From positions 496,001 through 560,000 of the forward strand of contig NZ_FNVZ01000005.1 in NCBI RefSeq assembly GCF_900104625.1: a stretch of DNA of 64,000 bases. Reading direction: 5' to 3'. Position numbers and translations under genes: made by a program. The stretch comes from Leptotrichia massiliensis. GTDB taxonomy: Bacteria > Fusobacteriota > Fusobacteriia > Fusobacteriales > Leptotrichiaceae. Positions 3,379 to 64,000 of the stretch are shown here, one piece after another (position 1 is the first letter of the stretch; each line of letters opens with the position of its first letter). The notes beneath the pieces were generated by a model, which was not told the origin of the DNA, ran no database searches, and saw only the letters and a program-made list of their open reading frames with translations.

Positions 3379-4722
3379 ATGTTAGAAATTATTAAAAATT
3401 TTAATGAATTTTTTTGGGGAGTTATTTTAATTGTTTTGTTAGTTGGAACAGGAGTATTTTATACATTTCGACTGAAATTTATTCAAGTTAGGGAGTTTAA
3501 GAGCGGTTTGAAACAGTTGACAAGCGGGTTTGACTTGAGCGGAGAAAAGGCGGATAATAATGGGATGTCGTCGTTTCAGGCTTTAGCAACGGCTATTGCA
3601 GCACAAGTTGGAACAGGAAATCTCGCAGGAGCGGCAACAGCGATTGTATCAGGAGGTCCAGGGGCAATATTCTGGATGTGGGTAAGTGCATTTTTTGGAA
3701 TGGCAACTATCTATTCAGAAGCTGTATTAAGTCAGATTTTTAAACAGAAAAAAGATGGAGAAATGACGGGAGGCCCAGCATACTACATTGAAACATTATT
3801 TAAAGGAGGAAAAGCGGCCAAATTTCTGGCAGGATTCTTTGCGGTTTCATGCGTACTGTCTTTAGGATTTATGGGAAATGCGGTTCAGGCAAATTCAGTA
3901 GGAGATGCTTTTCATAATGCTTTTCATGTTCCGACAGTTATAACAGGTATATTTTTGGCAATTTTATCTGGATTTATATTTTTTGGAGGAGTAAAAAGAA
4001 TTGCTTCAGTTACTGAAAAAATAGTTCCTATTATGGCAGTTCTTTATGTTGTAATATGTCTGTTCATCATTGTGTTAAATATTGGAAATGCAGGTTTGGC
4101 ATTTAAAGCGATTTTTGTGAATGCTTTTTCGACAAAGGCAGTTTTAGGTGGATTTTTAGGAATGGGAATAAAAAAAGCGATAAGATTTGGAGTGGCAAGA
4201 GGATTATTCTCAAATGAGGCTGGAATGGGTTCAACTCCGCATGCTCACGCAATTGCAAAGGTTAAAAATCCTGAAGATCAAGGGCATGTTGCAATTGTCA
4301 CAGTTTTTATTGATACTTTTGTAATTTTGACATTATCAGCATTAGTAATTTTGATTGCAGACGGAAAAGCGGATGGAACTGGGATTTCATTGACACAACA
4401 GGCATTTCACGCAGTATTGGGGCATTTTGGAGTGATTTTTGTTGCAGTTGCATTATTCTTTTTTGCATTTTCTACTATAATTGGATGGTATTTCTTTGGG
4501 GAAGCTAATGTGAAATATCTGTTTGGTAAAAAAGCACTTAATATTTATAGAATTTTAGTAATGATTTGCATAATTGCCGGTTCACTTCAAAAAGTTGATT
4601 TAGTGTGGGAACTTGCGGATATGTTTAACGGTCTTATGGTAATTCCAAATTTGATAGCATTGATTTGTTTGCATAAATTGGTGGTTGAAGTTACAAAAAA
4701 AGATCCGTTGTTAGAGGATTAA
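3379..4722 (+). CDS. Sodium:alanine/glycine symporter (AgcS/AlsT family)
   Basis: This polytopic inner-membrane protein of 447 residues belongs to the alanine-or-glycine:cation symporter family, which imports small amino acids with Na+. Family hallmarks are visible: SSFQALATAIAAQVGTGNLAG near residue 65, GGPGAIFWMWVSAFFGM, the GGPAYYIE loop, and the conserved SNEAGMGSTPHAHA segment near residue 277. Length matches the family. The start ATG at 3379 follows AAGGAGAAGG. The tandem glycine riboswitch directly upstream supports glycine as a physiological substrate. A terminator follows the gene. Confidence 0.93.
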   Translation: MLEIIKNFNEFFWGVILIVLLVGTGVFYTFRLKFIQVREFKSGLKQLTSGFDLSGEKADNNGMSSFQALATAIAAQVGTGNLAGAATAIVSGGPGAIFWMWVSAFFGMATIYSEAVLSQIFKQKKDGEMTGGPAYYIETLFKGGKAAKFLAGFFAVSCVLSLGFMGNAVQANSVGDAFHNAFHVPTVITGIFLAILSGFIFFGGVKRIASVTEKIVPIMAVLYVVICLFIIVLNIGNAGLAFKAIFVNAFSTKAVLGGFLGMGIKKAIRFGVARGLFSNEAGMGSTPHAHAIAKVKNPEDQGHVAIVTVFIDTFVILTLSALVILIADGKADGTGISLTQQAFHAVLGHFGVIFVAVALFFFAFSTIIGWYFFGEANVKYLFGKKALNIYRILVMICIIAGSLQKVDLVWELADMFNGLMVIPNLIALICLHKLVVEVTKKDPLLED

Positions 4723-4733
4723 CGACAAATAAA

Positions 4734-4787
4734 AATATACTCAAAACTTAAAAGTAGAAAAATTTAAGGTTGGGTATATTTTTTTAT
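4734..4787. terminator. Bidirectional terminator between convergent genes
   Basis: AATATACTCAAAACTT pairs with AAGGTTGGGTATATT and is followed by T8. The reverse strand also ends in a T-rich run. It serves the symporter and the convergent methyltransferase. Confidence 0.8.
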
Positions 4788-4793
4788 TAAAAT

Positions 4794-5597
4794 TTAATAG
4801 TTATTTTTTTCGTAAGTATAAATTCCAAGTCGATTATTTACAATATAAAGCAATGGAATAAATAATTTTTTCCAACCAGGAAGATGATGTTTCATTTCAT
4901 CAGTAAAGTTGATAAGTCCAATTTGTTTTAATTTTGGATTCAATTTTATAATTTCGCTTCCATCTTTTACACCCCAAATAAATTTTGCTTTCATATTTTT
5001 TAAAGCGTCATGCTTGTCATTTAACTTAACGGTTCCTTTATAAATAAGATCAAAATGAGCTTCAAAAGAATTAAAATTATTAGTTAGTATCTCCAAAAAC
5101 TGTTTAATTTTTTGTTCTTCAAAGTACATTAATACGCCTTCTGAAATAATAAGTAATTTTTTTCCATTCAATTTAATTTCATTTGTCCAAGCTGAGTCAA
5201 AAGCTGATTTTGGAATATTTGTAACACGTTCATTAGGTTCAAAAAATAATTTTCGTTTTTCAATAACTTCAGGTAAATCAAGATTATACCATCTTATTTT
5301 TCCATTATCAATTCGTAAAAATCTTGTATCTAATCCACATCCAATAGATACAATCACACAATCTGGATATTTTTCTATAAACTTTCTTACTTCATTATCC
5401 ATTACTTTTGCACGTGAGAGTACACCATAATACGATGTCCAAGCATTTTTAAATTTTGAGAAATCATAATCTATCTGTGAAAGTATTTCTAAAGACTTTT
5501 TATCATTCAAAATTGGTTTTAGGCTTTTAGCATCAGTAGCTCTCATATACAAAGTAATAAGCATAGTTTCAGAAATGTTGTTTAAATTTATTTTCAT
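4794..5597 (-). CDS. Class I SAM-dependent methyltransferase, LCM/Tcm O-methyltransferase family
   Basis: This 267-residue protein resembles the leucine carboxyl methyltransferase / Tcm polyketide O-methyltransferase group. Visible motifs are CVIVSIGCGLDTRF near residue 80 (SAM-binding motif I; the extended CGLDTRF is typical of the group), WYNLDLPEVIEKRK with the acidic loop, LLIISEGVLMYF near residue 150, and HLPGWKKLF near the C-terminus. In bacteria the substrates are usually unknown small molecules or carboxyl groups. The start ATG at 5597 is preceded by AGGAGGAATAAACT. It stands alone, convergent with the symporter. Confidence 0.87.
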   Translation of the reverse strand: MKINLNNISETMLITLYMRATDAKSLKPILNDKKSLEILSQIDYDFSKFKNAWTSYYGVLSRAKVMDNEVRKFIEKYPDCVIVSIGCGLDTRFLRIDNGKIRWYNLDLPEVIEKRKLFFEPNERVTNIPKSAFDSAWTNEIKLNGKKLLIISEGVLMYFEEQKIKQFLEILTNNFNSFEAHFDLIYKGTVKLNDKHDALKNMKAKFIWGVKDGSEIIKLNPKLKQIGLINFTDEMKHHLPGWKKLFIPLLYIVNNRLGIYTYEKNNY

Positions 5598-5645
5598 AGT
5601 TTATTCCTCCTGAAAAATATTTTGAGAATCAAAGTATTCTAATAC

Positions 5646-5673
5646 ATTATACCTGAATTTTAGCAAAATGCAA
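5646..5673 (-). promoter_or_regulatory. Promoter of the LCM-family methyltransferase
   Basis: On the minus strand TTGCAT (5673-5668) and TATAAT (5651-5646) are 16 bp apart, about 45 bp upstream of the start codon. Confidence 0.6.
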
Positions 5674-5772
5674 ATTTAAATATAAAAAAATAAGAAAAAA
5701 TTATTATTAATCAAATGATAAGCAAATAGGTAAATAAGTTTTTGTGTTTTTAATTTTCTTTAATTTTTAAAT

Positions 5773-5801
5773 TTGTAAAAATTACGAAAAAATGGTATAA
5801 T
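5773..5801 (+). promoter_or_regulatory. pnp promoter with extended -10
   Basis: TTGTAA (5773-5778), a 17-bp spacer ending in TGG, and TATAAT (5796-5801). Transcription would start near 5808, leaving a leader of about 115 bases before pnp. Confidence 0.75.
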
Positions 5802-5809
5802 TATAAAAA

Positions 5810-5899
5810 TTTTAAGAAGGTATTTTGAGTAAGTAATTGTAAAGTTTTTTATTAAAAATTTGATGAAAGATTTTACTATTATTTGCTCCCTTCTTAAAA
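5810..5899 (+). promoter_or_regulatory. Structured leader of pnp mRNA
   Basis: TTTTAAGAAGG (5810-5820), at the very start of the predicted transcript, is exactly complementary to CCTTCTTAAAA (5889-5899), just before the pnp ribosome binding site. The closing stem is 11 bp with a 68-base interior. No T-tract follows, so it is not a terminator. In E. coli a leader stem is cut by RNase III and is needed for PNPase autoregulation; a similar role here is an inference. Confidence 0.55.
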
Positions 5900-5923
5900 A
5901 ATAAATAAATTTTAGGAGGAAAA

Positions 5924-8023
5924 ATGTTTGAAGAGAAAATTTATGGTTTTAATTTAGGAAACCAGAAAATTAAAATAAGTACAGGGAAAATCGCACGTCA
6001 AGCTGGAGGTTCAGTTGTTGTTCAATGTGGAGGGACAATGCTTTTAGTTACTGCGACTAGGAGCAAGGATGTCAGAGAAGGACAGGATTTTTTTCCTTTA
6101 ACAGTTGACTATATTGAAAAATTTTATGCATCAGGGAAATTTCCAGGTGGATTTATAAAAAGGGAAACTAAGCCAGGAACTGATGAAGTCTTGATTTCAA
6201 GATTGATTGACAGACCAATCAGACCTTTATTTCCGGAAGGATTTTTGAATGCAGTACATATTGTAGTTACGGTGCTTTCTTATGATGAAGTAAATTATCC
6301 AGAAAATCTTGCTACGATTGGAGTTTCTGCCGCTTTAGGATTATCAGATATTCCATTTGTAGGAACTGTGGCTGGAGTTACAGTTGGGTACATTAATGGA
6401 GAATACATCTTGAATCCGACAGGAGAGCAGTTGCTGGAAAGCGAAATTCAATTATCAGTTGCAGGGACAAAAGATGCTGTAACAATGGTAGAGGCTGGAG
6501 CTAAGGAAGTTTCTGAGGAAGTTATGCTGGAAGCGATTATGTTTGGGCATGAAAAAATTAAGGAAATTTGTGCAGAGCAAGACAAATTTTTAGAACAGTT
6601 TGATGTACAAAAATATGAATTTGAGAAAAAGGAAGTAGATTCTGAAATCAAGGAATTTATTGACAGTTTTGAAAATGAAGTTGAAAAGGCTATAATGACA
6701 CCAGGTAAACTGGAAAAATACGAGGCAATTGATAATTTAGAAATAGAACTTTTTGAAAAATATGTTGAAAAACTTGAAAATGAAGATAAAGAAATTGACG
6801 AAAATCTTGAAAAAGAATTTAAGAAATATTATAGAGATGTTGAAAAAAGACTTGTCAGAGATGCTATTTTATATAAGCAATATCGTGCTGACGGTCGTCA
6901 AACTACTGAAATCCGTCCAATTGATGTAGAAATAGATACACTTCCAGTACCGCATGGTTCTGCATTGTTCACACGTGGAGAAACTCAGGCATTAGTTGTT
7001 GCAACGCTTGGAAGTAAGGAAGACGAGCAAATTATTGATGGAATGGAAGATGAAACACGTAAAAAATTCTTCCTGCATTATAATTTTCCGCCATATTCAG
7101 TTGGAGAAGCTGGATTTATGAGAGCTCCTGGAAGACGTGAACTAGGACATGGAAACTTGGCAGAAAGAGCCTTAAAATATGTTATGCCAGATACAGACAA
7201 ATTCCCATACACAGTAAGGCTTGTTTCTGAAATTACAGAATCAAATGGTTCTTCGTCACAGGCTTCAATTTGTGGAGGATCGCTTGCATTAATGGCTGCT
7301 GGAGTTCCGATAAAATCTACAGTTGCCGGAATTGCTATGGGACTTATAAAAGAAGGTGAAACATTCACAGTACTTACTGATATTCAAGGACTTGAAGACC
7401 ATCTTGGAGATATGGACTTTAAAGTTGCAGGTACAAAAGATGGAATTACTGCGATTCAAATGGATATAAAAATTGAAGGAATCACAAGGGAAATAATGGA
7501 AATTGCTTTAAGACAGGCATTAGAAGGAAGATTGTTCATCATTGATAAAATGGAAGCAGTAATTAGTGAGCCAAGAGCACAAGTCGCTGAAAATGCACCA
7601 AAAATTGAGATTGTTAAAATTAATCCTGATAAAATTGCTGGACTTATCGGCCCAGGAGGGAAAGTTATTAGAGCAATTATTGATGAAACTGGAGTTTCAA
7701 TAGATATTGAAGATGACGGAACTGTTGCAATTTTTGGAAAAGAATCTGAAAATATGAAAAAAGCGCTGGAACTTGTCAAAAGACAAACTCAGTCAGTTGA
7801 GTTAAATGAAATTTATGAAGGAAAAGTTACAAAACTGATGAAATTTGGTGCATTTGTGGAAGTGTTGCCAGGAAAAGAAGGGCTTTTACATATTTCTGAA
7901 ATTAGTAATAAGAGAGTTGAAAAGACAGAAGATGTACTAAAAGAAGGCCAAAATGTCAGAGTCAAGGTAATTTCAATGGAAAGCGAAGACAAATTTAACT
8001 TGAGTATGAAAACATTGAATTAA
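5924..8023 (+). CDS. pnp: Polyribonucleotide nucleotidyltransferase (PNPase)
   Basis: This phosphorolytic 3'-5' exoribonuclease degrades mRNA as a trimer. The 699-residue length is standard. Domains in order are a first RNase PH domain (about 1-230; [31 protein letters not shown]), a helical linker, a second RNase PH domain (about 315-545; [36 protein letters not shown], then [21 protein letters not shown] and the catalytic Asp region [16 protein letters not shown]), a KH domain ([15 protein letters not shown], about 570) and an S1 domain ([30 protein letters not shown], about 630). The ATG follows AGGAGG. It is probably co-transcribed with pgsA and the YggT gene. Confidence 0.98.
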
Positions 8024-8060
8024 TTTAGAATATTACTATGATTTAGGGAGTGTGGAAAAA

Positions 8061-8615
8061 ATGAAAATGAATTTACCTAATAAATTAGCAACATTAAGAA
8101 TTATTTTGGTTATACCATTTGTGATTTTTCTAAGTTTAGCTCTGAAAGTCCCAGATAATGCAGCAGTTTCTGTGACGATGAGAATATTTGCAGCAATTAT
8201 CTTTGTAGGGGCATCTATTACAGATTATTATGATGGAAAAATTGCAAGAAAATATAATTTAATTACAAATTTAGGGAAATTACTGGATCCATTAGCTGAT
8301 AAAATACTTGTTATTTCGGCATTAGTAACGCTTGCAAAATTTAATCAAATAAGTCTATGGTTTGTAATAATAATAATTTTTAGAGAATTGCTTATAACTG
8401 GACTTCGTTCAATTGTGGCGGCTGAAGGGGTTGTTATTGCGGCAGAGAATCTTGGAAAATGGAAGACTGCTACTCAAATGGTAGCACTTACACTAATAAT
8501 TTTAATACCTTTTAATTTTACAATAAACAACATATTATTATTAATTCCGTTAATATTGACTATAGTTTCAGGAGTTGAATATGTTTTAAAATGTAAAAAT
8601 GTTTTAAATAAATAA
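8061..8615 (+). CDS. pgsA: CDP-diacylglycerol-glycerol-3-phosphate 3-phosphatidyltransferase
   Basis: This integral membrane enzyme makes phosphatidylglycerol phosphate from CDP-diacylglycerol, the committed step to anionic phospholipids. The CDP-alcohol phosphotransferase signature DG-x2-AR-x8-G-x3-D-x3-D is visible as DYYDGKIARKYNLITNLGKLLDPLADK near residue 60. Several hydrophobic segments surround it, and the length of 184 residues fits. I start at ATG 8061, because the Shine-Dalgarno AGGGAG (8045-8050) has proper spacing to it. The in-frame GTG at 8052 lies only one base from that site. The gene follows pnp by about 37 bp. Confidence 0.95.
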   Translation: MKMNLPNKLATLRIILVIPFVIFLSLALKVPDNAAVSVTMRIFAAIIFVGASITDYYDGKIARKYNLITNLGKLLDPLADKILVISALVTLAKFNQISLWFVIIIIFRELLITGLRSIVAAEGVVIAAENLGKWKTATQMVALTLIILIPFNFTINNILLLIPLILTIVSGVEYVLKCKNVLNK

Positions 8616-8667
8616 TAAAAGAAAACCTTTAAATTTTTTTCAAGGTTAAATTTTTGGAGGTACTATT

Positions 8668-8937
8668 TTGTATATTATTGTAGATATGATACTAAAAATA
8701 TTTGATTTATACACAATTCTTATTTTGCTAAATATTTTAGGAAGTTGGATTGATCCCTACAATCAAATATCGATTTTTCAATGGATTAGAAAATTTACAG
8801 ATCCTTATTTGAAAATGTTCAAAATAATAATTCCGATTGGAAATATGAATTTAGATATTTCTGGAATTTTAGGTTTAATGATACTAAAGGTAATAAGAGA
8901 AATATTTGTGAGAGTTGTTTTTATTGGAGGAATTTAA
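8668..8937 (+). CDS. YggT family membrane protein
   Basis: This small protein of 89 residues has two hydrophobic segments (about 5-25 and 60-80) around a conserved loop, NILGSWIDPYNQISIFQWIRKFTDPYLKMFKIIIP. That loop is the YggT-family signature, with W-x-DP and TDP-L-P-like spacing. The family is linked to cell-envelope and division functions but has no fixed biochemical role. The start is TTG at 8668, supported by TGGAGG at 8655-8660. It sits 52 bp behind pgsA, so it is likely the last gene of that transcript. Confidence 0.85.
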   Translation: MYIIVDMILKIFDLYTILILLNILGSWIDPYNQISIFQWIRKFTDPYLKMFKIIIPIGNMNLDISGILGLMILKVIREIFVRVVFIGGI

Positions 8938-9130
8938 AAATCTTAAAATCAGAATAGAAAAATTAAATTATAGTTTGTTATTTTATTTTGAAATAGCAAA
9001 AAATTAAAGGAACTAAGATTAAAAACAATAAGAATATTAACTTTTCTAAGAAAAGAGGAGTACAATAACTAACATTAAATTACTTAAATTTAAGAAATAG
9101 AAATTTTTATGAAATAGGAGATTTTAAATT

Positions 9131-10273
9131 ATGAAATTAAAAAAGCTTTTAACTACATCATTTATAGCGACTGCTCTTACAGCAACTGCAGCAGTTTCAA
9201 ATGATACAAATATTTTACAAAATAAGCAAATTGTTCAAAATACAAATGTTACAGGAGATATGTATAGTGCTCAAAATGCATTTTCAGCAGTTTATGAAAA
9301 GGCAAAAGATTCAGTTGTAAATATAAGAACGAAAAAAACAATTGTAGTACAAACGTATAATCCACTTGAAGCATTTTTATTTGGAACATCTGGGGTAAGA
9401 CAACAAAGACGTGAATCTGGAAGTTTGGGTTCAGGATTCGTAATCTCAAGCGATGGATATATGATGACAAATAATCACGTTATCGATGGAGCGGATGAAA
9501 TTTATGTGAAATTATCTGATGGACATGAGTATTTGGCAAAATTAGTTGGAACTTCACCTGAAGTAGATATTGCAATTTTAAAAGTAAATGCAAATAGAAC
9601 ATTTAAACCATTAAAATTTGCTGATTCAGATAATATAAAAATTGGGCACTGGGCAATTGCATTTGGAAATCCATTAGGATTGAATAGTTCGATGACAGTT
9701 GGGGTAGTTGGAGCTTCTGGAAGAAGTTCATTGGGAATTGAACAAGTTGAAAACTTTATACAGACAGATGCCTCTATTAATCAAGGAAACAGTGGTGGAC
9801 CGCTTCTTAACATTAATGGAGATGTTATTGGTGTAAATACTGCTATTTATTCTCCAAATGGTGGAAGTGTTGGATTAAGTTTTGCAATTCCATCAAACTT
9901 GGCTGAAAATGTTAGAGATTCAATTATAAGAACAGGAAAATATGAACGTCCATACATAGGAATTTCTGTATTAGATTTGACACCTGAATTAAGAAAAGAA
10001 AGAAGAATTTCATATTCAACAGGTATTTTAGTTCAACAAATTTATCCAAATTCACCAGCAGCAAAATATGGATTAAAAGTTAATGATTTAATTTTTGAAA
10101 TCAATGGAAAACGTGTAACATCGGCAGGATCATTTATTGGAGAGCTTGCAGCTAAAAAAATTGGTGAAACAGTTAATTTAAAAATAGCATCAAATGGAAC
10201 TGAAAAAAATATTTCTATGAAATTAGAAGCATTTAGCTATCAACAACAGCAAAGATCTCAACAAAGAAGATGA
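9131..10273 (+). CDS. degP: HtrA/DegP-type periplasmic serine protease
   Basis: This 380-residue protein has an N-terminal signal peptide (KLKKLLTTSFIATALTATAAVS), a trypsin-like domain and one C-terminal PDZ domain (about 270-360). The triad is visible as His in TNNHVIDGADE, Asp in VDIAILKV and Ser in NQGNSGGPLLN. A loop rich in Gln/Arg (GVRQQRRESGSLGSGF) precedes the histidine, in the position of the DegP LA loop. The protein should act as an envelope quality-control protease and chaperone. The C-terminus ends in an unusual Gln/Arg-rich tail (YQQQQRSQQRR). The symbol is by family; DegP, DegQ and DegS cannot be told apart, though one PDZ is closer to the DegS/HtrA-1 type. Confidence 0.93.
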   Translation: MKLKKLLTTSFIATALTATAAVSNDTNILQNKQIVQNTNVTGDMYSAQNAFSAVYEKAKDSVVNIRTKKTIVVQTYNPLEAFLFGTSGVRQQRRESGSLGSGFVISSDGYMMTNNHVIDGADEIYVKLSDGHEYLAKLVGTSPEVDIAILKVNANRTFKPLKFADSDNIKIGHWAIAFGNPLGLNSSMTVGVVGASGRSSLGIEQVENFIQTDASINQGNSGGPLLNINGDVIGVNTAIYSPNGGSVGLSFAIPSNLAENVRDSIIRTGKYERPYIGISVLDLTPELRKERRISYSTGILVQQIYPNSPAAKYGLKVNDLIFEINGKRVTSAGSFIGELAAKKIGETVNLKIASNGTEKNISMKLEAFSYQQQQRSQQRR

Positions 10274-56924: not shown

Positions 56925-57016
56925 AATTCAAACTTTATATTCCCAAAGAATTAAATATAATTTTCGCTGTTTAAACAGGGTACAGTACTAGTAAAAAAAT
57001 ATCCTTAAAAACTTTT

Positions 57017-58216
57017 TTATTTCATGACTCTTAATACAAGTTTTTCTTTCGCATCTTTCAAAATCTCATTAATCTCATTTTTTGAAATATTATTTGCCAA
57101 GATGATATAGTAATTTTCAATTTGATTTATTAGTTCAAAAGGCGAATTTTCTATATCAAAATCATCTGAAACTCTTATATAGTAAGAATCTTTTACTGTA
57201 TTAGAATCAACAATCTCAAATACTTTTGTAGAATTAAAGAAATAATCTGATTCAATGTGATTTCTTGTTACAATTTTTACTATATCTGCCACCACAGCTG
57301 ACGCAGTAGGATCCATTCCAGCACCTTTTCCATAAAATAAAGTTTTGTCTGTGTAAGAACCAGTTGTTTCAATTGCATTGTAAACATCATCAACTTTTGC
57401 TAAAATTTCGCTATTTGGAATTAATGTTGGTTCTACAGAAATTTGTGCTGATGTATCAGACAATAGTTTTGAGCTTGCAATTAATTTTATAGTTGAGTTT
57501 AGCTGATTTGCTGAGAAAATGTCAACAGTGCTGATTTCTCTTATTCCTGATAATTGCATATCTTTAAATTTGATTGAACCTCCGTAGGCAAGTGAGGCAA
57601 GAATATTAATCTTGTGTCCTGCATCAATTCCATCTACATCATAAGTAGGATCAGCTTCTGCATATCCTTTTTCAGAGGCAAGTTTTAACGCTTCGTTAAA
57701 CGATAAGCTGTCTTCTTTCATTTTTGTCAAAATATAGTTTGAAGTTCCATTCATAATTCCACGAATTTCAGTAACTGTATTTGCAACTAAACTTTCCATT
57801 AAAGGTGTTACAATAGGGATTCCTCCACCAACAGCGGCTTCAAATAGAAATGATACTCCATTTTGTTTTGCGCGCTGGAATAGTTCCACTCCGTATTTTG
57901 CAATTAGAGCCTTGTTTGCTGTAACAACACTTTTTTTAGCTTCAAATGCTTCAATAATTATTTGTTTTGCTACAGTTTCTCCACCAATTAGTTCTACAAC
58001 GATCTTAATTTCAGGATCATTTAATATTTTTTTGTAATCATTTGTAAGTATTGATTTATCAAAATCAAAAGAAAAATCACGGTTAATGTTTAAATCACAA
58101 GCATATTTCACTTCAATGTCAGCTCTTGATTTTTCAAAAATGCTTTCTTTTTCGTTAGTTAATACTTTAAGAACTCCTTCTCCGACAGTTCCAAGTCCAA
58201 CAATTCCTATTTTCAT
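57017..58216 (-). CDS. hom: Homoserine dehydrogenase
   Basis: This 399-residue enzyme reduces aspartate semialdehyde to homoserine on the way to threonine and methionine. The Rossmann start is GIVGLGTVGEGVLKVL. VVELIGGETVAKQIIIEAFEAKKSVVTANKALIAKYG, AAVGGGIPIVTPLMESL, IRGIMNGTSNYILTKM and YAEADPTYDVDGIDAGHKINILASLAYGG are all family motifs with the catalytic Lys and Asp. A short C-terminal ACT-like region (YYIRVSDDF ... NYYIILANNISKNEINEIL) may bind threonine. It lies 41 bp behind lysC, with AGGGAGG-type ribosome binding site. Confidence 0.95.
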   Translation of the reverse strand: MKIGIVGLGTVGEGVLKVLTNEKESIFEKSRADIEVKYACDLNINRDFSFDFDKSILTNDYKKILNDPEIKIVVELIGGETVAKQIIIEAFEAKKSVVTANKALIAKYGVELFQRAKQNGVSFLFEAAVGGGIPIVTPLMESLVANTVTEIRGIMNGTSNYILTKMKEDSLSFNEALKLASEKGYAEADPTYDVDGIDAGHKINILASLAYGGSIKFKDMQLSGIREISTVDIFSANQLNSTIKLIASSKLLSDTSAQISVEPTLIPNSEILAKVDDVYNAIETTGSYTDKTLFYGKGAGMDPTASAVVADIVKIVTRNHIESDYFFNSTKVFEIVDSNTVKDSYYIRVSDDFDIENSPFELINQIENYYIILANNISKNEINEILKDAKEKLVLRVMK

Positions 58217-58257
58217 ATTTTTAAAAGACCTCCCTTTAAGTTGTTTATTTTTGTTTT

Positions 58258-59520
58258 TTAATTATCAATTTCAATAAATCTTTTATGAAGTGCAGTAACA
58301 GCTTTATCTACATCGTCTTCATGGATAATGCATGAAACATTAATTTCAGAGCAAGAAATCATATCAATGTTTATATTGTTTTCTGCAAGTGTGTCAAAAA
58401 TTTCAGATGTTGTTTCATAATGGCTTTTTAGACCAATTCCAACAACAGATACTTTTGCAATTTTTTCTTCAAATGAAACACCTTCTGCTCCAATTTGTTC
58501 CTTTATTTGTTCTGAAATAGCAACAGCTTCCTTTAAATCATCACTTTTAACAGTAAATGAAATGTTATTCAATTCTTTATTTCTGCTCGAACTTTGTAAA
58601 ATTATGTCAGTATTAATTTTTTCCTTTGCAAGTCTGGAAAATACTTTTGCAGCAATTCCTGGTTTGTCAGGTACTCCAAAAAGTGTAATTTTTCCTTCAT
58701 TTTTAGAAGATGTGATACCTGAAATTTTTACTTTTTCCATAGTTTCTCCTTTTATATTAATATTTTCGCTTTCTATTCCGCCAGCATTTTCATTATATTG
58801 GACAATAGTTCCAGTAGAATCGTCAAATGATGAACGTAAATGTATTTTTATACCATACTTTGCAGCAATTTCAACTGATCTTGGATGCAACACTTTTGCT
58901 CCCGAAGCCGCCAATTCCAGCATTTCCTGATATGAGATAGTTTGCAGCTTTTTAGCGTTTTTTACAATTCTAGGATCAGCTGTGTAAACTCCATCAACAT
59001 CGGTATAAATTTCCACTTCATCAGCATTAAGGGCAGCTCCCAGCGCGACAGCAGTTGTATCAGAACCACCACGCCCAAGCGTAGTAATTTCATTATTTTC
59101 AGTGATTCCTTGAAATCCAGCAAACACAACTACATTTCCTTCGTCTAGTTTTTCTTGTATGATTTGGGTATCAATGTCAATGATTTTAGCTTTTGTATGC
59201 ACAGATGTTGTTTTAAAATTGACTTGAAACGCATTTAATGAAACTGCCTTTTCTCCCAAATCAGCAACAGCAATGGCAAGAGATGCAATAGAAATTTGCT
59301 CTCCTGATGTCAAAAGCATGTCAAATTCACGTTTATTTGGAGAATCTGACAATTCATAAGCTCGTTTTATTAGCTCGTCAGTTCTCCCAGCTGGTGCAGA
59401 AACAACAACAATTACATCATGTCCAGCCTTTTTATACTTTACAACCCTTTTTGCAACTTCTTTTACACGTTTGGCATCGGCTACGGAAGTTCCACCATAT
59501 TTTTGTATAATTAAAGCCAT
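58258..59520 (-). CDS. lysC: Aspartate kinase with two ACT domains
   Basis: This 420-residue enzyme phosphorylates aspartate, the first step to lysine, threonine and methionine. The kinase part opens IIQKYGGTSVADAKRVKEVAKRV. FAGFQGITENNEITTLGRGGSDTTAVALGAALNADEVEIYTDVDGVYTADPRIV (about 130-185) holds the catalytic and ATP-site residues. Two ACT domains follow (KITLFGVPDKPGIAAKVFSRLAKEKIN and KVSVVGIGLKSHYETTSEIFDTLAENNINIDMISCSEINVSCII), giving allosteric control. AGGAGG precedes the ATG at 59520. Its product also feeds carboxynorspermidine synthesis. No lysine riboswitch lies upstream. Confidence 0.96.
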   Translation of the reverse strand: MALIIQKYGGTSVADAKRVKEVAKRVVKYKKAGHDVIVVVSAPAGRTDELIKRAYELSDSPNKREFDMLLTSGEQISIASLAIAVADLGEKAVSLNAFQVNFKTTSVHTKAKIIDIDTQIIQEKLDEGNVVVFAGFQGITENNEITTLGRGGSDTTAVALGAALNADEVEIYTDVDGVYTADPRIVKNAKKLQTISYQEMLELAASGAKVLHPRSVEIAAKYGIKIHLRSSFDDSTGTIVQYNENAGGIESENINIKGETMEKVKISGITSSKNEGKITLFGVPDKPGIAAKVFSRLAKEKINTDIILQSSSRNKELNNISFTVKSDDLKEAVAISEQIKEQIGAEGVSFEEKIAKVSVVGIGLKSHYETTSEIFDTLAENNINIDMISCSEINVSCIIHEDDVDKAVTALHKRFIEIDN

Positions 59521-59569
59521 TTTACCTCCTATTTTATTTAAATATATTTCTCAATATTTTCACAAGCAA

Positions 59570-59598
59570 AGAATAACATATTATAAATAAAAAAGCAA
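59570..59598 (-). promoter_or_regulatory. lysC-hom promoter
   Basis: On the minus strand TTGCTT (59598-59593), a 17-bp spacer and TATTCT (59575-59570). The leader is only about 45 bases. Confidence 0.6.
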
Positions 59599-59692
59599 GG
59601 TAATTTCATATATTTATTATCATGCCAAAGGTTTTTAAAAATTTGTTTAAAATATTTAGGAATTTATTAAAAATACTATAAGTAAAAATAAA

Positions 59693-59721
59693 TTGAAAAA
59701 ATAAAATAAATGTGGTATCAT
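59693..59721 (+). promoter_or_regulatory. Promoter of the TolA-like gene with extended -10
   Basis: TTGAAA (59693-59698), a 17-bp spacer ending TGG, and TATCAT (59716-59721). The leader would be about 110 bases. The rest of the 59521-59838 gap is AT-rich without genes. Confidence 0.65.
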
Positions 59722-59838
59722 TAGTAGGTAAGATATGGATGAATTTTTTTTGATAATTGTATAAAATATAATATCTTAAAATAACTTCAGATATATTTTA
59801 TTTACTTTATTTTTAAAGTAAAATTAGGAGGAATATTC

Positions 59839-60462
59839 ATGAAGAATAAAAAGAAATTAATAATTATAACTTCAATTTTGGCAGTAGGAATCCCATTACT
59901 AGCTATTGGTACACAAACAATTTTAAGAAAAGTAAGGGATGATTACTACAAAAATCAAAGAGAGCAAATAGAAGCGGAAAAAGCTAGAGAAAGGGAAGAA
60001 AAAGCTAGAAAGCAAGCCGAAGAAAAGGCTGAACGTGAAAGATTGCTCCAGCAAGAAAAAGCTGAAAGGGAAAAACAATCAGTTGAAGAAAAAGAAGAAA
60101 AAAAACAGCAAGTTGTTGAAAGAAAAACACCAAAAGTAAAGGATAAAAAGGAAAAAGTTAGAATAACAGATGCTTCTTCAACATATGAACCAGTTCCAGC
60201 TCCAACTGTAAAACGTGAATTGACACCAGAAGAAATCAAACGAGCTAAAAAAGCACTAAAAGCAGCAAGAGCAAGTTATTTTAGTGGAAACAAAACAGCC
60301 AAACCTGCAAAAACGCCGAAAAGTACAGATAAAATAATAATAAAATCTGATAGTAAAGGAAATGTTGAAGCAGTAAGGCACACAAAAGAGCAAAATGATA
60401 AAGCACAAAAAATCTTAAAAGAAATACGTGAAAGTTATTACAAGGATAAAGGTAAAAGATAA
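59839..60462 (+). CDS. Membrane-anchored Lys/Glu-rich coiled-coil protein
   Basis: This 207-residue protein has one N-terminal membrane segment (LIIITSILAVGIPLLAIGTQTI) followed by a highly charged coiled coil (about 40-100, EKAREREEKARKQAEEKAERERLL), which resembles the middle of TolA or an IgA1-type spacer. The second half is Pro/Thr/Lys-rich and has two similar motifs: 'KKALKAARASYFSGNK' (about 143) and 'QKILKEIRESYYKDKG' (about 190). No known domain is recognised. The low-complexity composition makes homology weak evidence. It is a single-gene unit with promoter and terminator. GGAGG precedes the ATG. Confidence 0.7.
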   Translation: MKNKKKLIIITSILAVGIPLLAIGTQTILRKVRDDYYKNQREQIEAEKAREREEKARKQAEEKAERERLLQQEKAEREKQSVEEKEEKKQQVVERKTPKVKDKKEKVRITDASSTYEPVPAPTVKRELTPEEIKRAKKALKAARASYFSGNKTAKPAKTPKSTDKIIIKSDSKGNVEAVRHTKEQNDKAQKILKEIRESYYKDKGKR

Positions 60463-60466
60463 AAAG

Positions 60467-60492
60467 AATGGCTCAGAAATGAGTCATTTTTA
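60467..60492 (+). terminator. Terminator after the coiled-coil gene
   Basis: AATGGCTCA (60467-60475), loop GAAA, TGAGTCATT (60480-60488), then T-rich. Confidence 0.85.
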
Positions 60493-60595
60493 TATAAATA
60501 TTTAAATTTTAATAATAAATATATCTTTTAATAAACTATAAAGTATTGTATAATATATTTTAAGAAATAGAATATAAAATATCTGGAGGAATAAA

Positions 60596-62323
60596 ATGCT
60601 AAAATCAATAGAAATTATTCAGTATAGAAAATTAAAAGATTTAACTATAAATTTTAATGAAGAAGTAAATATTATATCAGGAACTAATGGAACTTGTAAA
60701 AGTTCATTATTATATATTATAAGCAATTCTTTTCAAAAAGTAACAAAGAAGAATACAAAAATAAATAAAAATGAGTTAAAAAAAATTGAAAATAAAGAAA
60801 GAGAAAATTGCATTTCAATAATTTATACAATTAATAAATTAATGAATCCTAAAATTGAAAGTTTAACACGAGGTGACGAAAAATACAATAATCCTGCTCC
60901 TAATTTAATGGGTATATTGTATAAATGTAAATACTCTGATGATTCAGAATTAAGCTTTAGAAGGCATAATAGTGGAAAAAATAGATTTTCACTAAAGCCC
61001 AGATATTCAAAAGGAAGTAATGAAAAATTGCCAGCAGCACCAATAATATATCTTGGACTTTTTAGATTACATCCTTATGGAGAGTTTAAAAATGATAATG
61101 ATGTAAAAGAAATACGAAATAAATTGCCAGAAAAGTATTTGAATGAACTATCAGAGATTTATAAAAATTTTACAAATATGGAAATATCAATTGAAGAAAA
61201 TAATAAAAATATTAATATGGGAAATATAAAAAATAGAGGAATTTTTTTGACTGGTACAGAAGGTATTGATTCAAATACTATTTCTGCTGGAGAAGATAAT
61301 CTCTATATTATTCTAATGGCTATAACATCTTTAAAATATTATTACGAAATAGAGAAAAAAGGAAGTATTTTATTAATTGATGAATTTGATGCTACTTTAC
61401 ATCCAGCATATCAGATAAAATTATATGAATTAATTAGAGAATACTCTAAAAAATACAATATACAAACATTTTTTACAAGTCATAGTTTGAGTTTGATAGA
61501 GTATGCTTTAGATAAAAAAGATAAAAGTGTTTTTTATTTATTGAAAAATTTTGATGAAGTACAGCTAATAGAAGATATAACAATGGGAAAAATAGAAATG
61601 TGGTTAAAAAATCAATTAAAATCAGATATTTATGTTAATAAAAAAATACCAGTCTATACGGAAGATGAAGAAGCTAGAGAATTTTTAAAATATTTGTTTG
61701 AATATTTTGAAAAAAAAGAAGGAGTTTCAGAAGTATTAAAATATTTTCATTTAGTTGATATTAAAATTTCTTCTGAAGCATTAAAACAAATATTTGGCTA
61801 TGATAAAATACTTAAAAATAATATTTCTTCAATAAGTACAAGTTCAATTTGTATACTTGATGGAGATCAAAATGTAAATCAAAAGCAGAAAAACCAAAAA
61901 GATATAGATATTTTAAATAACATTATATATTTACCTTCAAATAAATCTCCAGAAAAATTAATTTTTGATTATTCATTAGAGTTATATGATAATAAAAATA
62001 AAAAATTTTGGAATAATGAAGAATTAAAAGATTTAGGATATAATGATGAATATTTTAGAGAACATATAAAAAATAAAATAGAAGAAAATGAGAAAAAGAT
62101 TGAAAAATTAAAAAAAAATGAAAAATCAACAAAAGGTAAAAGAAGAGTACAAAATAAAGAATTGTTTAATGAGTTTATTGAATTTTTTAGATTTGTAATT
62201 AAATTTTGGATTCAAAATAATACTATTGAAGTAGAAGAATTTTATAAAAAATTAAAAATTTCATTTTATAGAGTTGCTCCATATCAGAAAATTGATTCAA
62301 AATTATGGAAAGAAAAAGAATAG
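60596..62323 (+). CDS. OLD-like AAA ATPase with TOPRIM-like C-terminus
   Basis: This 575-residue protein has a RecF/ABC-type ATPase head. Walker A is SGTNGTCKSSLL (29-36), with Cys34 where the invariant Gly of GxxxxGKS normally stands. The signature-like SAGEDNLYIILMA lies near residue 232, Walker B LLIDEFDATLHP near residue 258, and the switch His TSHSLSLIEYAL follows. The second half has IPVYTEDEEAREFLKYLF (about 352) and SSICILDGDQN (about 419), which match the acidic motifs of a TOPRIM nuclease. The layout is that of OLD-family nucleases. The ATG follows GGAGG. A DNA methylase gene begins 11 bp after its stop. The gene is strikingly A-rich compared with secA or groES. Confidence 0.8.
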   Translation: MLKSIEIIQYRKLKDLTINFNEEVNIISGTNGTCKSSLLYIISNSFQKVTKKNTKINKNELKKIENKERENCISIIYTINKLMNPKIESLTRGDEKYNNPAPNLMGILYKCKYSDDSELSFRRHNSGKNRFSLKPRYSKGSNEKLPAAPIIYLGLFRLHPYGEFKNDNDVKEIRNKLPEKYLNELSEIYKNFTNMEISIEENNKNINMGNIKNRGIFLTGTEGIDSNTISAGEDNLYIILMAITSLKYYYEIEKKGSILLIDEFDATLHPAYQIKLYELIREYSKKYNIQTFFTSHSLSLIEYALDKKDKSVFYLLKNFDEVQLIEDITMGKIEMWLKNQLKSDIYVNKKIPVYTEDEEAREFLKYLFEYFEKKEGVSEVLKYFHLVDIKISSEALKQIFGYDKILKNNISSISTSSICILDGDQNVNQKQKNQKDIDILNNIIYLPSNKSPEKLIFDYSLELYDNKNKKFWNNEELKDLGYNDEYFREHIKNKIEENEKKIEKLKKNEKSTKGKRRVQNKELFNEFIEFFRFVIKFWIQNNTIEVEEFYKKLKISFYRVAPYQKIDSKLWKEKE

Positions 62324-62334
62324 GAGATATAAAA

Positions 62335-63186
62335 ATGAAAAGAAGTATTTCTCCATTAAGATATCCAGGAGGTAAAGCAAAAGTTTATGATTTAGTTGTT
62401 AAATTGCTAAAAGAAAATAGTTTTAATGGTGCTACTTATATAGAACCCTTTGCAGGTGGATGTGGACTTGCTTTGTTATTATTAGAAAATAATATTGTGA
62501 ATAAATTAATTTTAAATGATATTGACAAAGGAGTATATTGTTTTTGGCAATCAGTTTTAAAATATAATAAAGATTTTTGTGAGATGATTGAAAAATCTAG
62601 TATTTCAATTAAAGAAAGAGATAAAAAAATCAGAATATATAAAAATAAGGATAATATTGATATTTCTCAAAAAAAAAATATTTTAGAATTGGGGTTGGCT
62701 ACATTTTACTTGAATAGAGTAAATCGTTCAGGAATTTTAAAAGCAGGAGTAATAGGAGGAAAAAATCAAACTGGAAATTATAAAATGGATTGTAGATTTA
62801 ATAAAAAATCATTAATTTTAAAAATTAAAAAGATAGAAAAATTAAAAGATAAAATAGAATTTTATAACTACGATGTTATTGAATTTATAGACAATTATTT
62901 AAAATTTGAAAGTATAGATTCTTTTGTATTTTTAGATCCACCTTATTATAATAAAGGTTCTGAATTATACACTAATTTTTACAAACACGAAGATCATAAA
63001 CGTTTAGCTGATTACATAAAAAAAATAAATCAAAGGTGGATAGTTACTTATGATAATTGTGAAGAAATAAAAGAAATTTTTAATGAATACAATCAAAAGG
63101 AATTTGATATTTCATATACCTTAGAAGTAAAACGAAAAAGCAAAGAAATAATGATATTTGACAAAAAAATTGAAAAATTTTTCTGA
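62335..63186 (+). CDS. D12-class DNA adenine methylase (Dam-like)
   Basis: This 283-residue N6-adenine methyltransferase has SPLRYPGGKAKVYDLV at the start (motif X), TYIEPFAGGCGLALLLL near residue 38 (SAM binding), and FVFLDPPYYNKGSELYTNFYKHEDH near residue 201 (catalytic DPPY). This is the alpha order of the D12 class, as in Dam and DpnM. The target sequence cannot be read from the gene. I take ATG 62335 with AGGAG upstream, not the ATG 62305 that overlaps the ATPase gene. The pairing with the ATPase suggests modification of sites that the partner then spares. Confidence 0.92.
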   Translation: MKRSISPLRYPGGKAKVYDLVVKLLKENSFNGATYIEPFAGGCGLALLLLENNIVNKLILNDIDKGVYCFWQSVLKYNKDFCEMIEKSSISIKERDKKIRIYKNKDNIDISQKKNILELGLATFYLNRVNRSGILKAGVIGGKNQTGNYKMDCRFNKKSLILKIKKIEKLKDKIEFYNYDVIEFIDNYLKFESIDSFVFLDPPYYNKGSELYTNFYKHEDHKRLADYIKKINQRWIVTYDNCEEIKEIFNEYNQKEFDISYTLEVKRKSKEIMIFDKKIEKFF

Positions 63187-63193
63187 AAAAGAC

Positions 63194-63253
63194 TTGCAAA
63201 ATTTTTAAAAATGTATTATTATGTTGTTAGCACTTGAACATATAGAGTGCTAA
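63194..63253 (+). promoter_or_regulatory. groES promoter and CIRCE operator
   Basis: TTGCAA (63194-63199), a 17-bp spacer and TATTAT (63217-63222), followed by TTAGCACTT, nine bases, and GAGTGCTAA (63227-63253). This is the HrcA-binding CIRCE element with one mismatch in the left arm. Confidence 0.92.
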
Positions 63254-63288
63254 AAAATTAAATTAAAAATGTAAATTAGGAGGGAAAA

Positions 63289-63552
63289 ATGATAATTAAA
63301 CCATTGGGAGAAAGAGTTTTAATAAAACAGACAGAACAGGAAGAAGTTACAAAAAGCGGGATTGTATTGCCAGGGACAGCTTCAAAGGAAAAACCGATAA
63401 TTGGAGAAGTTTTAGCAGTTGGTTCAAAGGTTGAGGAAGTTAAAGCTGGAGATAAAGTAATTTTTGAAAAATATTCTGGAACTGAAGTTAAGGATGGGGA
63501 AGAAAGCTACTTAATTTTAGAAAAAGACAATGTTTTGGCAATTGTTGAATAA
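63289..63552 (+). CDS. groES: Co-chaperonin GroES
   Basis: This 87-residue heptameric lid of the GroEL chamber has the N-terminal [35 protein letters not shown], in which the mobile loop is KSGIVLP, and [29 protein letters not shown]. Slightly shorter than E. coli GroES (97). The ATG follows AGGAGGG. It is under CIRCE/HrcA control with its promoter just upstream. groEL starts 170 bp downstream, a longer gap than usual. Confidence 0.98.
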
Positions 63553-63637
63553 TAAAAATTTTAAAAAATAAATTTGTATAAAAATTAAATGTATTAAAAA
63601 ATAAGACAGACATTGTAAAACAAGTGATTTTTATTCC

Positions 63638-63666
63638 TTGTCAAAATAAAAAAATTATATTATTAA
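63638..63666 (+). promoter_or_regulatory. Possible separate groEL promoter
   Basis: TTGTCA (63638-63643), 17 bp, TATTAA (63661-63666), within the 170-bp groES-groEL gap. ACAAG/CTTGT just upstream can form a small hairpin. Confidence 0.35.
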
Positions 63667-63707
63667 ATTACGAAGGAATTTTGCAATAAAAAATTTACAA
63701 ACTTTAG

Positions 63708-64000
<293 letters not shown>

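Follow-up and report, generated by a model that had tools for sequence, protein, structure and literature searches.

A methylase-linked ATPase–TOPRIM-like gene pair upstream of groES in Leptotrichia massiliensis that resembles the PD-lambda-5 and PARIS anti-phage systems

Upstream of groES, the 64,000-nucleotide stretch of Leptotrichia massiliensis DNA analysed here (hereafter the window) carries two closely spaced genes, which an earlier note, made from the letters alone, had read as an OLD-like ATPase/TOPRIM nuclease and a Dam-type methylase acting together in a system akin to restriction-modification (RM). The locus raises the questions of whether the two genes form a unit and, if so, what kind of system they constitute. 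We find that an ATPase-TOPRIM-like protein and a PD-lambda-5_B-type methylase make up a conserved unit, which in the window has been inserted upstream of groES, and that methylases of this family pair with the ATPase effector, with the ParB/Srx-like protein PD-Lambda-5_A, or with both. With somewhat less than even confidence, we regard the pair as a putative mobile two-gene anti-phage cassette with a methylase-linked PARIS-like effector; it looks like a relative, not yet named, of the PD-lambda-5 and PARIS systems.

A two-gene unit inserted upstream of groES

The two open reading frames lie 11 bp apart, as had been described, and each has a good ribosome-binding site (Table 1). The mechanical methylase frame begins at 62305, overlapping the ATPase gene; since the PD-lambda-5_B family alignment begins at residue 11 of this frame, and AGGAGA precedes ATG 62335, the latter is probably the start. 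The pair is A+T-rich (GC 0.18–0.24, against 0.27–0.39 in most flanking segments) and, as the earlier note placed it, sits between a terminator and groES (start 63289). The terminator (GGCTCA-GAAA-TGAGTC-ATTTTT, 60470–60491) was seen in the sequence, and a consensus scan did not list it. The neighbouring ORFs are p207 on one side and groES on the other. In its own genome (2.54 Mb) the methylase is the single member of the D12 family, and the ATPase is present in one copy at E<=1e-10. Rfam gave no match within 59500–64000.

Table 1. Coordinates of the features of the gene pair within the window
Feature	Position	Strand	Basis
ATPase-TOPRIM-like effector gene, 575 aa	60596..62323	+	ORF; Pfam AAA_15; PADLOC best AriA 2.2e-17; 55-row alignment A3; AF2
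D12 N6-adenine methylase, PD-lambda-5_B family, 283 aa	62335..63186	+	PADLOC; Pfam D12; alignment A4
Shine-Dalgarno GGAGG, ATPase gene	60585..60589	+	sequence
Shine-Dalgarno AGGAGA, methylase gene	62322..62327	+	sequence
Walker A GTNGTCKS, residues 29-36	60680..60703	+	G29, N31, K35 in 55/55
ABC-like signature SAGEDN (S-x-G-x-D-N), residues 230-235	61283..61300	+	S230, G232, D234, N235 in 55/55
Walker B SILLIDE, residues 257-263	61364..61384	+	D262, E263 in 55/55
Switch histidine H296	61481..61483	+	55/55
TOPRIM-like motif 1, E356-D357	61661..61666	+	55/55
TOPRIM-like motif 2, D422-G-D424	61859..61867	+	D422 and D424 in 55/55
Putative C-terminal AriB/OLD-type TOPRIM-like domain, ~residues 348-575	61637..62320	+	AF2 of domain alone; VIA; hhalign to AriB/DUF4435
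DPPY catalytic motif of methylase	62935..62946	+	D201-Y204 invariant in 29/29 (A4)
Insertion relative to four congeners	60507..63185	.	blastn of 57000-64000 vs groES loci L123, L126, L128, L131; junction alignment

The gene order homoserine dehydrogenase, aspartokinase, 207-aa Lys/Glu-rich protein, groES is kept in four congeners (G006, G010, G009 and G001), and in blastn the window aligns with each of them on both sides of a gap at approximately 60507–63185, without the insert. The junction alignment places the left edge within 60466–60510 and the right edge within 63162–63186; the insert holds exactly two genes, those of the ATPase and the methylase, and neither an integrase nor a clear target duplication was seen at its junctions in this alignment. 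Horizontal gain, previously suggested from composition and position, is borne out by this clean insertion relative to congeners with the same neighbours. Eight further congeners were searched; the groES of G011 is close to the end of its contig, the others do not align over the whole upstream block, and three of the eight (L132–L134) still have the 207-aa protein 5′ of groES.

The flanks hold two further features. The 207-aa protein (59839–60462) has a hydrophobic N-terminus and is 59–89% identical across the four congeners. An inverted repeat, TTAGCACTT-N9-GAGTGCTAA, lies upstream of groES (63227–63253) and is kept in congeners; it is CIRCE-like, hence groES has its own HrcA-type control, independent of the insert.

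Family and domains of the two proteins

The methylase matches the PADLOC model PD-Lambda-5_B (PDLC04018) with E 1.8e-110 over 280 residues and Pfam MethyltransfD12 with 80.9 bits (cut-off 22); its catalytic motifs (DPPY and SAM) are invariant in 29/29 aligned rows. The D12 part of the earlier assignment therefore stands, and its generic Dam part gives way: as judged from these matches, the protein is the B component of a system, PD-lambda-5, whose anti-phage action has been validated by experiment. PD-Lambda-5_A was not found at the window locus, in that PADLOC listed 25 of 79 families for the ATPase and no such model was among them; its model (PDLC04017) found nothing in the organism's own genome, a search in which the same model matched no control either.

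At other loci the PD-Lambda-5_B methylase has another partner, in most cases approximately 410–580 aa long. Twenty such proteins, from locus L018, intervening or adjacent genes and phage partners, were aligned (A6) and share an invariant GNRR block, which we take to be a ParB/Srx-type motif; the product name of a V. maritimus protein makes the same link. By clustering, A6 and PADLOC, this partner is assigned to PD-Lambda-5_A. The idea that the intervening genes are new components was rejected, 20/20 of the A6 proteins matching PADLOC PD-Lambda-5_A at 1e-5 or better. A search of the PDB with the PD-lambda-5_A profile yielded chance matches to ribosomal protein L3 only. In the C-terminal third of A6, these proteins have late invariant R365 and H438 residues, which could be a HEPN-like pair.

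The partner in the window is of another kind. It matches Pfam AAA_15 (61.4 bits; cut-off 32.1) and, also above cut-off, AAA_21 (41 bits); AriA is the best single PADLOC model for the whole protein, and the PADLOC match to AriAB is limited to the ATPase stretch 251–322. The Walker A and B motifs, switch histidine and two acidic TOPRIM-like motifs reported earlier from the one sequence are not chance features, because each recurs in 55/55 aligned relatives; at position 453 the same 55 rows (A3) have either E (46) or D (9). For the full-chain AlphaFold2 model (pLDDT 84.8, pTM 0.63), the best whole-chain Foldseek matches were GajA (8u7i_A, 6.2e-10), the OLD protein of T. scotoductus (6p74, 7.6e-10) and retron Eco8 (9lpa_B, 1.4e-09).

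Because full-chain VIA covered residues 1–340 only, the C-terminal domain was folded alone (AF2; pLDDT 92.6, pTM 0.88). In VIA-align of this model against 999 chains, the eight best entries are all TOPRIM nucleases and the next others reach 4.6. AriB of PARIS ranks first (Z 6.8, rmsd 5.8, 175 aligned), above four OLD C-terminal structures (Z 6.4–6.0) and three retron Eco2 entries (Z 5.6–5.1); by the guidance that comes with the tool, a Z under 8, as in all of these, is weak, and together they form a coherent list. Retron Eco2 carries a TOPRIM domain. In hhalign, the C-terminal profile aligned with AriB/DUF4435 at E 7.7e-05 (prob 61.7), with the E-D and D-x-D motifs aligned, the AriB profile being one of five rows of which the first two scored 100% identical; the three rows scanned with PADLOC were all called AriB or AriAB. 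An OLD-TOPRIM profile (A7) gave no match to the effector C-terminus (prob 0.1), and controls against A6 and the methylase alignment A4 gave prob 0.3 and 4.6.

Other searches of this region returned no call. Foldseek with the domain alone had no match at E<=0.001, its best reaching 0.48, BFVD held no informative match for the effector C-terminus, and PF20469 did not match the domain. In the ATPase protein there was no match at E<=1 to Pfam TOPRIM, nor a TOPRIM call from PADLOC or NCBIfam, and none at E<=1 to Pfam DUF4435, which had no match in the genome either. Searched by sequence against the PDB, the C-terminal profile produced chance matches alone, to ribosomal and centromere proteins.

The sequence and model comparisons weakly suggest that the C-terminal domain is TOPRIM-like and nearest AriB of PARIS rather than the TOPRIM of OLD/Gabija. 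What survives of the earlier OLD-like label, and of its proposed structural match of residues 340–575 to OLD TOPRIM domains, is an ATPase with a TOPRIM-like C-terminus; the OLD structures score below AriB in a comparison that is itself weak, and GajB is absent.

Pairing, partner choice and effector exchange

In a sample of 100 genomes, mostly relatives from the family and order and including its own, 5 carry the ATPase, and all of these are among the 6 that carry the methylase; in the remaining genome the methylase match is partial and lies at a contig start. If the genes were independent, the chance of this overlap would be approximately 8e-08 by our own arithmetic. Among GTDB contigs, 198 stretches encode ATPase relatives, and in 73 of the best 80 of these 198 a methylase of the same family lies within 5 kb: directly downstream in 45, directly upstream in 8, downstream beyond other DNA in 18 and on the other strand in 2. 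Among the 73 are weaker members (L046, methylase 121 bits; L043, 203 bits; L079, cut by a contig end). The 7 with none within the flanks include two whose contigs end within 100 bases (L065 and L088) and one whose contig ends approximately 1.1 kb past the ATPase gene (L069); L050, L064 and L085 have no methylase of the PD-lambda-5_B family in their flanks, nor has L106, where the ATPase-TOPRIM relative sits between HsdS and HsdR in a type I RM operon (3728–9629). Conserved pairing elsewhere, which the earlier note had predicted, is thus seen in both samples, and neither of the outcomes that it named as telling against its reading (no TOPRIM fold in the C-terminus; genes unpaired in relatives) was found.

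The two genes also diverge together. ATPase and methylase distances over the 71 usable of the 80 loci give a Mantel r of 0.825, with 0/2000 permutations as high (highest 0.12). The pair is also present in Streptococcus, Vibrio and Citrobacter phages and in plasmids; a scan of viral contigs with a single ATPase sequence as query found no relative.

Seen from the methylase, the choice of partner is wider. At E<=1e-50 it was found in 50 of 1,155 genomes of three classes (16/391, 19/369 and 15/395). Three centre genomes were excluded, since they had been chosen for holding the ATPase; PD-Lambda-5_A alone accompanies the methylase in 27 of the 47 that remain, the ATPase alone in 9, both in 2 and neither in 9, several of these last being fragments or contig ends. 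Viral loci (80 kept, 36 weak-scoring ones then dropped) divide similarly, with PD-Lambda-5_A only in 28 of 44, the ATPase only in 14, both in 1 and neither in 1. All three genes occur in 26 of the best 80 of 198 ATPase loci, in the orders ATPase–A–methylase (16), A–ATPase–methylase (7) and A–methylase–ATPase (3), where A is PD-Lambda-5_A; a Fusobacteriia relative (L003) has all three. From this survey of methylase partners the window is therefore the two-gene form, without PD-Lambda-5_A.

Several loci depart from these patterns. At L064 (5001–8952), one of the loci lacking the methylase, the genes after the ATPase relative encode a 598-aa protein of no known kind and a ThsB-TIR-like protein. 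The ATPase gene is split into two frames, with the methylase intact, in Fusobacterium vincentii (L006:6001–8499), and likewise split beside an intact methylase on a Psychrobacter plasmid (L013). In Vibrio phage 10N.286.54.E5_PE002 (L017:4001–6260) the PD-Lambda-5_B methylase gene converges on that of a 459-aa protein. No PADLOC model matches this protein, which falls outside the PD-Lambda-5_A cluster and is possibly a further type of methylase partner. Three viral methylase loci (L161, L163 and L167) have a common small neighbour family, also outside that cluster.

Co-divergence is not uniform. L002 and L005 share one site, following a sugar transferase that is 71.8% identical, and their methylases are 85.4% identical as against 34.1% for their ATPases, with the well-matching DNA beginning where the ATPase gene ends. 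Comparable discordance is seen between L040 and both L062 and L105 (methylase 74–75%, ATPase 26%), between L103 and approximately 21 others (60–69%, 23–26%), and between L035 and L107 (63%, 23%). From these discordant pairs, effector exchange therefore occurs on top of general co-inheritance. As read from sequence, the swaps and the relative in the type I RM operon do not favour a motif-matched type-II-like enzyme, and would allow a PARIS-like guard or an abortive mechanism.

Proposed mechanism and alternatives

Of the systems to which the pair may be compared, PD-lambda-5 has the same methylase family and a common prophage and mobile-element habitat, and its A and B occur together with the window-type ATPase in the 26 three-gene loci noted above; the window pair differs in having, by the one model searched in the genome, no PD-Lambda-5_A, its partner being ATPase-TOPRIM-like and not ParB/Srx-like. 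Nine of the ten phages tested in E. coli were affected by PD-lambda-5, which was cloned in a host without the mrr region and is labelled RM+Abi by its authors (PMC9519451). PARIS (AriA and AriB, or fused AriAB; class 4 OLD) has in common with the window an AAA_15 ATPase and, putatively, an AriB-like C-terminus, in a single chain in the window, whereas the effector here is not reached by the DUF4435 rule for AriB by which PARIS is detected (PMC9122126), and has an obligate-looking methylase partner. Gabija GajA and class 1–3 OLD nucleases have an ABC-ATPase and TOPRIM layout that the window protein putatively shares, but the window locus has no GajB UvrD-like helicase and no reverse transcriptase, is not a lone gene, and its effector matches neither PF20469 nor the OLD-TOPRIM profile. 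Type II RM systems with a D12/Dam-type methylase are alike in that a single N6-adenine methylase stands next to a putative nuclease; here the latter is instead of ABC-ATPase/TOPRIM-like type and exchangeable under a near-constant methylase.

Taken together, the PD-lambda-5 and PARIS reports make most likely an arrangement in which the methylase defines self and the ATPase holds the nuclease until infection. The methylase would mark the host chromosome with m6A, its activity or its mark standing for the safe condition. The ATPase head, which is RecF/SMC-like and probably a multimer, would detect departure from that condition, whether unmethylated replicating phage DNA or a methylase inhibited by the phage. 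Until then it would hold back the AriB-like TOPRIM nuclease, which on infection would be released or switched on to cut nucleic acid, either host tRNA, like AriB, or DNA, like OLD/GajA, and so abort the infection. We lean slightly towards an effector that is abortive and not matched to a motif. A simple toxin-antidote reading is disfavoured if the pair works like PARIS, because deletion of ariA or ariB is reported to be non-toxic there (PMC9122126).

The best-surviving alternative, which we nonetheless consider rather unlikely, is strict restriction-modification, in which the methylase protects a motif in host DNA and an ATP-controlled TOPRIM nuclease cuts the unmethylated motif. One-operon pairing (45/80 directly downstream and 8 directly upstream, best 80 of 198) speaks for it, and the high correlation of ATPase and methylase distances fits a matched pair too; OLD-type TOPRIM proteins are DNA nucleases (PMC10568477), and a split effector beside an intact methylase, as in F. 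vincentii and on the Psychrobacter plasmid, is the kind of loss that an RM pair can survive. Such an enzyme is harder to reconcile with an ATPase protein that has no recognisable target-recognition domain and a C-terminus nearer AriB than OLD, with effector swaps under a kept methylase, and with a relative that lies within a type I RM operon. The methylase family might, however, be conserved enough for one common target motif, in which case the swaps would be compatible with classical restriction.

We think it unlikelier still that the pair is a guard in the manner of PARIS proper, whose ATPase would sense anti-restriction or DNA-mimic proteins binding the methylase and whose AriB-like domain would cut host tRNA, methylation being a mere lure. 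The best PADLOC match (AriA), the C-terminus nearest AriB and the relative in the type I RM operon are consistent with this guard, as are published accounts that AriA-AriB halts growth upon sensing the anti-restriction protein Ocr (PMC9122126) and that AriB cuts host tRNA (PMC12839542). The fold match is weak, and PARIS is not described as methylase-linked in the excerpts consulted, against 73/80 here (best 80 of 198). That the two genes have separate functions and merely travel together, an orphan methylase protecting mobile elements by anti-restriction beside an independent ATPase nuclease, would suit the many copies in prophages and plasmids and a methylase that occurs with other partners too, but is very improbable given adjacency and co-divergence over diverse phyla and the 38/47 methylase genomes with the ATPase or PD-lambda-5_A alongside.

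Returning to the methylase-linked PARIS-like cassette, a wider reading, which we offer with more reserve, is that of a superfamily of immune cassettes, widespread and not yet named, in which one adenine methylase would serve interchangeable effectors and the methylase state, not a cognate site, would be the trigger. Its effectors would, with the same reserve, be the AriB-like ATPase-TOPRIM protein, the ParB/Srx-like PD-lambda-5_A, or both. The OLD classes (1, lone; 2, Gabija; 3, retron; 4, PARIS; 5, archaeal Cran1) include none with a methylase in the passages available from PMC10568477 and PMC12796447, and our literature search for an OLD/TOPRIM-methylase pair found none named; a 2020 survey of ABC ATPases may already describe the pair. 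Published work already cites OLD-ABC-anchored RM-like systems, and the pair is therefore not categorically new.

The pair exposes a detection gap: its methylase has a PADLOC model, yet it stands without PD-Lambda-5_A and its effector is missed by the PARIS domain rule. It ties the validated, mechanistically open PD-lambda-5 system to PARIS/OLD effectors via a common methylase, and its two-gene form makes a role of the methylase for an ATPase-TOPRIM effector directly testable. If the wider, superfamily reading is true, the pair would be a methylation-gated member of the PARIS/OLD clan.
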